In this document: piece after piece, positions 1-5,308 of the stretch
How the letters are laid out: each line of letters opens with the position of its first letter
How positions within the stretch are numbered: the stretch's first letter is position 1
Origin: a bacterium
GTDB lineage: Bacteria; Chloroflexota; Chloroflexia; Chloroflexales; Kallotenuaceae
Length of the DNA: 35,265 nt
NCBI GenBank assembly: GCA_016781505.1
Contig: JADDQF010000069.1
Location: 1 to 35,265 of the forward strand
Reading direction: 5' to 3'
Translations under genes and position numbers: made by a program
The notes under the pieces: generated by a model
What the model saw: only the letters and a program-made list of their open reading frames with translations
The model's database searches: none
What the model was told of the DNA's origin: nothing

Positions 1-90
1 GTTTGGCCGGCTCGGGTTTGGCCGGCTCGGGTTTGGCCGGCTCGGGTTTGGCCGGCGCAGGTGGTGCTGGCGCAGGTGGTGCTGGCGCAG
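1..90. repeat. 15-bp tandem repeat inside a coding region
   Basis: The unit GTTTGGCCGGCTCGG is present three times in a row and is followed by a variant ending GCGCAG, then by two copies of GTGGTGCTGGCGCAG. The array starts at the window edge, so its full length is unknown. Read on the minus strand it encodes E-P-A-K-P repeats preceded by A-P-A-P-P repeats. It is therefore part of the low-complexity tail of the minus-strand protein that covers this region. Such arrays can change copy number in steps of five residues without breaking the frame. Confidence 0.85.
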
Positions 91-948
91 GCTTCGCGGG
101 CGGCTCGGGTCTCGCCGACGGTGCCGCTACTGGTGCGGGCGCAGCCGTTGGTTGAGGCGCTGCTGGGACCTCAGGCTTGGCTGTTGGCGGTTGTGGCTGC
201 GGCGCACTTGTGGCTGGCGGTGGCACAGCGGTTGGATTGGTCTGGCCTGGCGACCGCCCGCCTGGCTTGCTTGGTGCCGCAGGTTGGGCAGCGTTTCCGG
301 CGGGTGGCTGTGGCGCTGCCGGTGCCCGTTGACCATTATCCGGTGCAGCTGGCACGGCTGGTGCTTGCCCGGCCTGAGGCGGCGTCGCCGCTGCCGGCCT
401 GGATGGTGCGGCAACTGCAGCAGGGCCGCTGGTGGCAGTTGGGGCTGGTTGCTGAACTACCACACTCGAGGGACGAGCAGGATTGGTCAGGGTGCGGCTT
501 GGGGTGCTGGTGGCTGTTGCCCTCGCCGCAGCCGCCCGAGCAGACGCAGGCGAGGGGTTGACTCCGGTTGGCTCCGGTGAAATGAACTCAAATCCTTGAG
601 CCGCTGGACCAGACGGGCTCAGCTCCTCATTCGCGGCCCGTTGCACTTGCGACTGGTCAGCTGCTTCGGAGGTGTTTGAGCCGATGCCAAAAAATCAAGC
701 ACGCCATTGGCTGGCAAGTCAAAAAAATCGAGCACTCCGCCCGCGTCATTGCCCTGAGCAACAACGACGTCCTGCTCCTTAACAGTATTGTGCGGCATGT
801 CCGCACGCTGCCCACGGGGACCCACCAGGCTCCAACCAGTTAAGATACTCACGCCGCAGGAGACAGCGACAAGCCAAAAGCGCGAGCGACGGCCACTGGT
901 GATACGGTTCACAACAGAACGTAACTGATGCACTGTTTGCCTCAACAA
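1..948 (-). CDS. Membrane-anchored Pro/Ala-rich protein next to ECF sigma factor, frame broken at a T run, partial
   Basis: I do not recognise the family. The gene lies just downstream of the sigma factor gene on the same strand, where an anti-sigma factor or sigma-regulated envelope protein is often found; that role is inferred from position only. The first frame, probably from a TTG codon at 948 (an in-frame stop lies at 952-954), gives a basic N-terminus of about 23 residues. A membrane segment follows at residues 24-43 (FWLVAVSCGVSILTGWSLVG). After it comes an outer part with a duplicated G-V-L-D-F motif at residues 71-87. This frame stops at 619-621. The next frame (-1) is open from about position 694 to the window edge, about 230 codons, and is Pro/Ala/Gln-rich ending in E-P-A-K-P repeats. 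The two frames join exactly at a run of six T on the minus strand (689-694). No zinc-binding anti-sigma motif (HxxxCxxC) is seen. The break could be sequencing error, slippage or true frameshifting. Confidence 0.6.
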
Positions 949-1107: not shown

Positions 1108-1716
1108 CTAGTAGTTAAGTGCGCTGCTGTCTTCCTCGATCAGCGATGACAATGCGTGCCGCAGCTTTTCCATCCCGAGGCGAATCCGGCCCTTGATCGT
1201 GCCGACCGGCTCGTCCAGATGGGCGGCAATTTCGGTGGAGGATAGGCCGCCGAAGTAGGCCAGCTCGATCGCTTGCCGTTGCAATAACGGCAGGTTACCG
1301 AGTGCGTTCCTGATGTCCGCGCGCAGCACCGCAAACTGCTCAAGGCCACGCTCGACCGCGCCGCTTAAATCGGGCAGATGCTCCAACGGCGTTTCCCATT
1401 CGCGCGCTCGATGCCAGCGCGTGCGCACTTCGTCAATCGCGCGGTTGCGGGCAATGCCCGACAGCCAGGTCGAGACCGAGCCAGCCGTGGGACGAAAGGT
1501 CGTCGCGCGCAGCCAGACCGAGTGAAACACATCCTGCAGCACTTCTTCCGCCGCGTTCCGGTCGTCGGTGATGCGCAGGGCGATGCTGTACAATAGCCGC
1601 GCGTAGCGCTCGTACAAGGACGATAGCGCCGATTCATCGTGGCTACTGATTAAATGCAACAACATCTCGTCATCGAGATCCGGAATAGGCTCAAAATCGG
1701 GATTGTGTTCGGACAT
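1108..1716 (-). CDS. ECF-type RNA polymerase sigma factor
   Basis: An alternative sigma factor of the extracytoplasmic-function group, which directs core RNA polymerase to stress or envelope promoters. Region 2 is clear: L-Y-E-R-Y-A-R-L-L-Y, then AAEEVLQDVFHSVW and TWLSGIARNRAIDEVR. Region 4 carries the helix-turn-helix LSSTEIAAHLDEPVGTIKGR followed by R-L-G-M-E-K-L-R. At 202 residues it has the usual size and lacks regions 1 and 3. Two starts are possible. The ATG at 1716 has GGAG only three bases upstream; the GTG at 1725 has no Shine-Dalgarno sequence. I prefer the ATG. The downstream neighbour on the same strand (1-948) is a single-pass membrane protein that may be its partner, but it has no recognisable anti-sigma domain. 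The divergent gene is the acyl-ACP desaturase, 211 bases away, so membrane lipid composition could be a regulatory target; this is conjecture. Confidence 0.93.
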   Translation of the reverse strand: MSEHNPDFEPIPDLDDEMLLHLISSHDESALSSLYERYARLLYSIALRITDDRNAAEEVLQDVFHSVWLRATTFRPTAGSVSTWLSGIARNRAIDEVRTRWHRAREWETPLEHLPDLSGAVERGLEQFAVLRADIRNALGNLPLLQRQAIELAYFGGLSSTEIAAHLDEPVGTIKGRIRLGMEKLRHALSSLIEEDSSALNY

Positions 1717-1936
1717 ATGCTCCACTACGTTTCAGCTGTATTCTAACGTATTTTTGACAAATCTGCGCAAGTATAGGCAATTTGTACTATCTAGTGATCC
1801 GATGGTGATGCAATTTACGTACCATACTATAGCGGCGGTAAACGTGTCCCGAAACGGGAGATCGCCTCAAGATTATAACCTGCGCGGCGCCCAACGTTTC
1901 GGATGGTGACGGCGCGCAAGCGATACTGGAGCAACC

Positions 1937-3295: not shown

Positions 3296-5308
3296 CTACT
3301 CCCCTGGTACCTCGTCATACATCGAGTGCACCTTCGCGCGCCAGTCGACAAGCTCGGAGCGCCGCCGCTTCATCTCGTCAAGCGATCGCTCCGGCGCAAG
3401 ATTGATCTGTTCTGCCGGGTCGGACGCGAGGTCGAACAGCTCATCGGGTCGGTCGTCGAAGTGGTAGATGTACTTTTCGTTCCCTTTGAGGCTGGCCATA
3501 CACCCCTGATCGCTCGAGCAACTGAACATCAAGGTGCGGTTCTTGGGTAATGGCTGAAGGAGTGAGCTTCTGCCATACCGGCCACCTTCGATCTTGTAGC
3601 CTAAAAGGTCGGCGACGGTCGGGAGGATGTCTAACTGATCTACTGGGCCTTCAAGGCGGGCGCCCGCCTTAAAGCGCTGCGGGTCGTGAATCAGCAGCGG
3701 TATCCGCACGCCTTCCTCGTAGATCGCGTCGCCATGCACGCTTCGGCCGTGCTCGCCGAAGGCCTGCCCATGGTCGCCCAGGAGAATAAAGATCGTATCC
3801 TCGTACAGACCGAGCTGCCGGTATTGGTCGAAGAGATGCTTGAGGAAGAAGTCCTGGTTGCGGACACTGTTGAGGTAGCGGTTGATCTCATCGTTGTCGG
3901 TAAAGGCCATGCGACCATAGCGCTTCTGGGGAGCGAGGTAGTCGTGATGCGGCGCCGACGTCAGGTAAGCGGCTAGAAAGGGCTCATCCCGGCGCTGCTC
4001 AAGCCAGGCGCGGCTCGGCTCCAACATAACCTCGTCCTCAACGCCAAAGTAGTTCGTCGGCTCGAATCCCGCAGTATTCATGTCCTCTAATGAATGAAAG
4101 TCCTCGTAGCCAAGGTTTTGTACGATCTGCTGGCTGTTTTCAAAATCCTTCAGCTGGGACATAAAGTACGCCGTGCGGTATCCCTGCTCCTTCAGTAGGT
4201 GCGGTAAGCAGATGTCAGGAAGCGTCTCGGGTATCGCCAGCACCCTGATCCGTGACGCCTGAAGCGGCGGATAGATGCCACAGTTGATCGCGGTCAGGGC
4301 GTTGTTGGTATGCGGGACTATTGCATACGCGTTTGCAACCAGCAGGCTGCGCTTTGCTAATTCGTCGAGGAAGGGCGTTGTTGGCAGCGCCTTGTTATAG
4401 GGAGTGGTAGCCGCAGCGCGGGTTGACTCGAGAAAAATCAATACAACGTTCCGGCGCTTGGTCGAGGGCGTGGATACGAAGCGTGCCGCGGACGGGATCG
4501 GCTCGACCCGCAGATCGGTAACGCCCTGTGATAGCTCCTCGCCCTGCGCCACCTCGACACTGGTCAGCATCACGTTAACGAAAGCGTCTCGTGCGAAGGA
4601 CTTACTCACACCTGGCGTGCCGACATGGGGCTGCAGGGATAGCCAGAAGCAGGCGACCGCGGCCAGCCCCAGCGCGGATACCTGCAGGGACCGCGGCCAA
4701 CGGCCGACGTCCTTGGAATAATTGGCATTCGGGCTGCGCCACCGGCGCACCAAGGACGCCGCCAGTGAAGGTCCGAGCAGCGAGTAGACGACCATTGCCA
4801 CGACGAGCGCCAGTACACCTGCGTTCACCTCGCTGGCTATCAGGCTGCCCAGCTCGTCGAAGGTCGTGAGCCCCAGCATGAGCGTCTCGGAGTCTAGCGT
4901 CGAGCCGGTAGACTTGAAATACTGATATGCGATCGTGGTGATTAAAAGAATACATATTGTTACCAGGTGGAAAAGGCCAAGGATGATCCAGCGGAATACG
5001 CCCTTCCTCACCGCCGCAAACAATCCAATCCAGAGCAAGACGTAGCCCAGATTGAAAAAAAGGTCGGATTGCATCAGCGCAAGACCTTCTCCAACGCCGG
5101 TAGGCTTGGGCGCCGACATGCGGATCTGCATCAGCCCAAGTGCTTCGCCGATCTCCGGATCCATCGGCCGCGAAAAGATAAGCAGGCTCTTGAGCGCCAG
5201 GTCGTACACAACGAACGGGATCAGGAGACTGAGCAGGTAGGCCCAATCATGACCGGTGAGTAGAAAGTCGTATCGCAGTCTAGCTGACGTGTTATTTTCG
5301 GGTGGCAT
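3296..5308 (-). CDS. Membrane-bound sulfatase / LTA-synthase-like phosphotransferase
   Basis: A member of the alkaline phosphatase superfamily that acts outside the membrane on a sulfate- or phosphate-ester polymer or lipid. The first 225 or so residues hold about five membrane segments (near 22-45, 84-100, 106-128, 162-185 and 207-224). A catalytic domain starts at N-V-V-L-I-F-L-E-S-T-R, where E294 is a likely metal ligand. In P-H-T-N-N-A-L-T-A-I-N-C-G-I-Y, T334 sits where LtaS-type enzymes have their nucleophilic threonine. G-D-H-G (D512, H513) and E-H-G nearby complete the metal site. There is no C-x-P-x-R sulfatase signature, so a Thr-nucleophile phosphoglycerol or phosphoethanolamine transferase is more likely than a true sulfatase. 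At 670 residues it matches the LtaS-like size. No Shine-Dalgarno sequence stands before the ATG. A possible promoter lies about 100 bases upstream. The substrate is unknown. Confidence 0.85.
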   Translation of the reverse strand: MPPENNTSARLRYDFLLTGHDWAYLLSLLIPFVVYDLALKSLLIFSRPMDPEIGEALGLMQIRMSAPKPTGVGEGLALMQSDLFFNLGYVLLWIGLFAAVRKGVFRWIILGLFHLVTICILLITTIAYQYFKSTGSTLDSETLMLGLTTFDELGSLIASEVNAGVLALVVAMVVYSLLGPSLAASLVRRWRSPNANYSKDVGRWPRSLQVSALGLAAVACFWLSLQPHVGTPGVSKSFARDAFVNVMLTSVEVAQGEELSQGVTDLRVEPIPSAARFVSTPSTKRRNVVLIFLESTRAAATTPYNKALPTTPFLDELAKRSLLVANAYAIVPHTNNALTAINCGIYPPLQASRIRVLAIPETLPDICLPHLLKEQGYRTAYFMSQLKDFENSQQIVQNLGYEDFHSLEDMNTAGFEPTNYFGVEDEVMLEPSRAWLEQRRDEPFLAAYLTSAPHHDYLAPQKRYGRMAFTDNDEINRYLNSVRNQDFFLKHLFDQYRQLGLYEDTIFILLGDHGQAFGEHGRSVHGDAIYEEGVRIPLLIHDPQRFKAGARLEGPVDQLDILPTVADLLGYKIEGGRYGRSSLLQPLPKNRTLMFSCSSDQGCMASLKGNEKYIYHFDDRPDELFDLASDPAEQINLAPERSLDEMKRRRSELVDWRAKVHSMYDEVPGE

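Follow-up and report, generated by a model that had tools for sequence, protein, structure and literature searches.

A proline-rich protein gene divided between two frames at a short T run beside an ECF sigma factor gene in a Chloroflexota genome

Introduction

Downstream of the gene for an ECF sigma factor in a Chloroflexota genome, a short reading frame that encodes a membrane helix stops beyond a run of T residues, and a second, displaced frame takes over from it and stays open to the end of the contig. Such an arrangement raises the question of whether the T run is a site of recoding, a switch that varies between cells, an error in the assembled sequence or simply the place at which a gene was broken. 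A sequence-only reading of the locus had allowed for slippage by polymerase or ribosome, a programmed -1 shift or a one-base error, and had suggested a comparison with close relatives. Here we ask whether the two frames are parts of a single gene, where the frame changes and which of these explanations best accounts for the change. The window, by which we mean the whole stretch of DNA analysed, comprises 35,265 nucleotides (bases 1-35265 of contig C137).

Results

Two frames, one gene

According to the list of open reading frames, the zero frame specifies a product of 104-109 amino acids (start at 933 or 948, stop at 619) on the minus strand (Table 1). Translation more probably begins at the GTG at 933, which a GAGG precedes by six bases; the TTG at 948 would give the 109-residue product. 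This first half has an Arg-rich N-terminus, one hydrophobic helix that by eye resembles a signal peptide or anchor, and two G-V-L-D-F-F motifs. The -1 frame on the same strand is open from just past a TGA at 697-695 as far as the window edge, where a Pro/Ala-rich tail gives way to PAKPE repeats. These coordinates agree with those of the sequence-only reading, and direct reading of the minus strand at 696-688 likewise returned the reported GAT TTT TTG, in which T_TTT_TTG conforms to the X_XXY_YYZ rule in the zero frame. The earlier description of a sister motif copy was accurate as to its seven Ts but not as to its placement 27 bases earlier, since the two copies start 33 bases apart (738 versus 705) and 27 is approximately the gap between the T runs. 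No Pfam domain was found in either half of the gene. Two terminator-like hairpins (window 743-729 and 716-702) end in the gene's two T runs; such sites are no more numerous than expected by chance.

Table 1. Positions of the split gene, its sequence motifs and the adjacent sigma factor gene in the window
Feature	Position	Strand	Basis
15-base tandem repeat (PAKPE) at assembly break	1..56	minus	
Second half of gene, -1 frame	2..694	minus	55-base overlap, C40 reading frame, third-position repeat pattern
First half of split gene, zero frame	619..933 (TTG start possible: 948)	minus	ORF list, start context
Heptamer T_TTT_TTG, zero frame	694-688	minus	
Second G-V-L-D-F copy with six-T run (694-689); likeliest frame-break point	688..705	minus	
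First G-V-L-D-F-F copy with seven-T run (727-721)	721..738	minus	direct reading, repeat comparison
ECF sigma factor	1108..1725	minus	Pfam Sigma70_r2 and r4_2

The contig ends within a tandem repeat, and the window edge matches exactly the first 55 bases of a second contig of the same genome, C40. On C40:1-394 the tail continues in the same frame for 130 residues (18 of them in the overlap), passing through PEPTA repeats to an Asp-rich C-terminus and a stop, beyond which the gene meets dnaK head-on. The overlap sits in a 15-base repeat, and because a unit divisible by three makes copy number frame-neutral, the contig break leaves the frame undisturbed; the join is further supported by synteny, as the sigma factor gene and dnaK directly adjoin in genomes of the same genus. 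C40 is thus the physical continuation of the window and carries dnaK. The joined gene is at least about 420 codons long and specifies, in order, a short N-terminus, the helix, the two GVLDFF motifs, the Pro/Ala-rich stretch, the PAKPE repeats, the PEPTA repeats and a poly-Asp tail. The protein is of low complexity and probably exported or membrane-anchored.

Signs of coding in the zero frame up to the T run and in the -1 frame beyond it

Openness of the -1 frame is by itself weak evidence for coding, since the opposite-strand frames are open here as well (186-192 amino acids). The internal repeats are more informative. Pairwise comparison of the seven PEPTA units in the -1 frame revealed 6, 0 and 71 differences at codon positions 1, 2 and 3, respectively (71 of 77 at the third), and because the differences fall almost entirely at third positions, selection has kept the frame as protein. 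This pattern on C40 constitutes strong evidence that the -1 frame codes, and the tail, which is free of stops and decay, has been under protein-level constraint. Similarly, the GVLDFF copies, compared up to the T run, differ at third codon positions only (GGA/GGC and CTC/CTT), so that the zero frame codes as far as that run. GC content by codon position between 694 and 620 was 0.64/0.44/0.64 in the -1 frame and 0.46/0.67/0.67 in the zero frame, against 0.66/0.45/0.71 in ordinary genes of the window, so that the -1 frame resembles ordinary genes there and the zero frame does not.

When a codon model was trained on some 135,000 codons from the same genome, its best-scoring switch fell at the T run (9.7, versus -9.0 for no shift), with an optimum that is nearly flat down to about 646, or across about 45 bases. 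The model and the third-position patterns bear out the proposal that the gene is broken at the T run: the two stretches are halves of a single gene whose frame breaks at or just after the run at 694-689. A run of at least six Ts would occur by chance in the 79-base interval with a probability of about 0.02 on the given strand (0.04 for A or T), which makes the coincidence of frame break and T run mildly significant.

The gene lies at a variable site between sigma factor and dnaK genes

The suggested comparison with close relatives yielded the sigma locus in three same-genus genomes, but the split gene is absent from it there, leaving no tract or stop to compare. In these genomes the sigma protein is 80-84% identical to that encoded in the window and has the same flanks, in the order diiron/desaturase-like enzyme (divergent), sigma factor, dnaK (convergent), with respective identities of 84-92%, 81-84% and 87-96% across the block. 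No gene lies between sigma factor and dnaK in any of the three, the interval being about 100-220 bases. A family member from another genus (genome G005) has different genes downstream of its sigma factor gene, with part of dnaK about 4 kb further on. As the interval is empty in three genomes, holds the split gene here and holds other genes in G005, it is a variable insertion site.

The functional link to the sigma factor implied by the sequence-only reading gained no support from this comparison: the sigma factor gene is conserved with its neighbors in the genus, but none of the other genomes examined has the split gene beside it. Nor is an anti-sigma factor indicated, given the absence of the gene beside the orthologous sigma factor gene in the three same-genus genomes and its lack of a Pfam domain. 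A scan downstream of other ECF sigma factor genes for Pro/Asp-rich proteins revealed no recurrent partner. Elsewhere in the window (3299-5308) lies a gene for a 670-amino-acid membrane protein with a Pfam sulfatase domain that resembles lipoteichoic acid synthase-type enzymes.

With the N-terminal half as query, 60 relatives, 400 phylum genomes and IMG/VR yielded no homologue beyond its own genome at E 0.001, and PLSDB yielded none at 1e-5; weak matches at E 0.03-0.1 among 158 genomes of the class were taken as chance. The sole match to the tail was another PT-rich protein, encoded in a 729-codon frame. By these searches the split gene appears to be an orphan of one species, inserted in this lineage between the sigma factor gene and dnaK. 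The region at G000:C117:46953 (L133:1-3100) contains a sortase-like gene and, after it, a gene whose long PT-rich product has repeated domains, by eye probably a surface protein pair.

A chance one-base indel is the most probable explanation of the break

Taken as the cause of the break, a one-base difference in the length of the T run is the simplest reading, as the sequence-only reading had proposed among its options. We consider it probable that this difference is a chance indel in a lineage-specific gene, which would make the assembled sequence a young null allele and not a programmed switch. The gene, inserted between the ECF sigma factor gene and the convergent dnaK, is split at its second T run, most likely through replication slippage by chance in the sampled lineage; as assembled, it would yield only a short membrane peptide that lacks the tail, and the split gene would presumably have lost its function. 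Viewed as a pseudogene, the locus combines a disrupted frame with an undecayed tail, and the genomes searched held no intact homologue for comparison. Counting against a null allele, an undecayed tail is what a gene that is intact or was broken very recently would show.

An intact gene is what a consensus or assembly error would imply, the T run having been called one base short. The undamaged, constrained tail and the seven Ts of the sister motif copy are what such an error would leave, but the character of the assembly speaks against it. N gaps of 59-249 bases and exact overlaps of 50 and 55 bases at contig ends indicate that it was built from paired short reads, which seldom miscall six or seven Ts. 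Moreover, about 660 kb of the same genome yielded no further homopolymer break that was convincing. In a tract scan of this sequence, 115 coding homopolymers of six or more stayed in frame and four switches were flagged, the scan having low sensitivity for weakly biased genes and thresholds that the split gene itself, with its weak codon bias, did not pass. None of the four is convincing as a break: two read as gene junctions, one (window 5866) as the normal end of a gene, and the last (L138:4846) was called weakly. The scan replaced an earlier dynamic-programming search for frame breaks, discarded as too permissive (3,569 calls). We therefore regard an error as unlikely and favor a real indel.

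Less likely still is a contingency locus, in which slippage by DNA polymerase would vary the tract length between cells and switch a surface protein's tail on or off. A probably exported or surface protein belongs to the class in which phase variation is typical (PMC3711429), and a single added base would restore the open -1 frame. As in homopolymer phase-variable surface protein genes subject to slipped-strand mispairing, the tract decides the C-terminal part of the product. However, unlike in those genes, the tract is short, one allele has been observed and no relative has the locus. Six or seven Ts are few for phase variation, the survey threshold for poly-A/T being at least seven (PMC3711429); runs of this length are frequent, with 158 per strand across 660 kb of the same genome; and a single tract length is known, from one assembly of the species.

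Recoding, by a ribosomal -1 shift on U_UUU_UUG or by transcriptional slippage on the U run, would yield some full-length protein alongside a truncated form that is also used. The zero-frame heptamer, which leads into an open frame, and the constraint on the tail that this frame encodes fit such a mechanism, and the heptamer is shared with dnaX-type and IS-element frameshifting (for example the IS911/IS3 signals; PMC4066793). Unlike with those signals, no stimulatory structure or Shine-Dalgarno element was found and no conservation is seen: RNA folding downstream of the heptamer was indistinct from that of shuffled sequences (z of +0.97, -0.04 and -0.87), no AGGAGG-like element precedes it at 720-695, and the 60 relatives, 158 class genomes and 400 phylum genomes yielded no convincing homologue that might show a conserved shift site. 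Nor is the heptamer distinctive: of 287 ordinary long ORFs in the same genome, 129 contain an in-frame X_XXY_YYZ, and T_TTT_TTG itself occurs ten times. It also needs no separate cause, because removing one base from a run of seven Ts in the same phase before a G creates T_TTT_TTG automatically. Heptamers shift little in Escherichia coli when no stimulator is present, those of the best, A_AAG type reaching about 0.3% (PMC4066793). For transcriptional slippage the six Ts are short: in Thermus thermophilus dnaX, where a homopolymer likewise links two frames, the run is of nine As, and selection against such slippage is mostly seen from about nine A/T (PMC1088944). The heptamer is not evidence of programming, and the locus looks like a chance indel; on all these grounds we find the earlier suggestion of programmed -1 frameshifting unsupported and hold recoding in either form to be very improbable.

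Discussion

The chance indel that we favor need not have silenced the tail completely. In one precedent, an E. coli rpoB mutation, a chance frameshift was strongly suppressed, with 5% shifting (PMC7022156), and on that basis partial read-through of the break is conceivable. We give little credence to the broader idea of a lineage-specific surface protein of a Chloroflexota bacterium, uncultured or environmental, whose long Pro-rich, acidic tail would be switched by changes in T-run length or by low-level ribosome slippage.

The gene recalls the frameshifted singleton orphans of the GeneTack survey (PMC3711429), which share with it a frame break at a homopolymer and a lack of homologues; it differs from them in that constraint on the downstream frame can be demonstrated from internal repeats. 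As found, it is of little significance, being another orphan gene that carries a one-base homopolymer break and essentially ordinary. The match to a slippery heptamer carries almost no weight after a homopolymer indel, since the indel itself makes the match. If mixed tract lengths did exist, the locus would encode a surface protein subject to phase variation in a Chloroflexota lineage from the environment.
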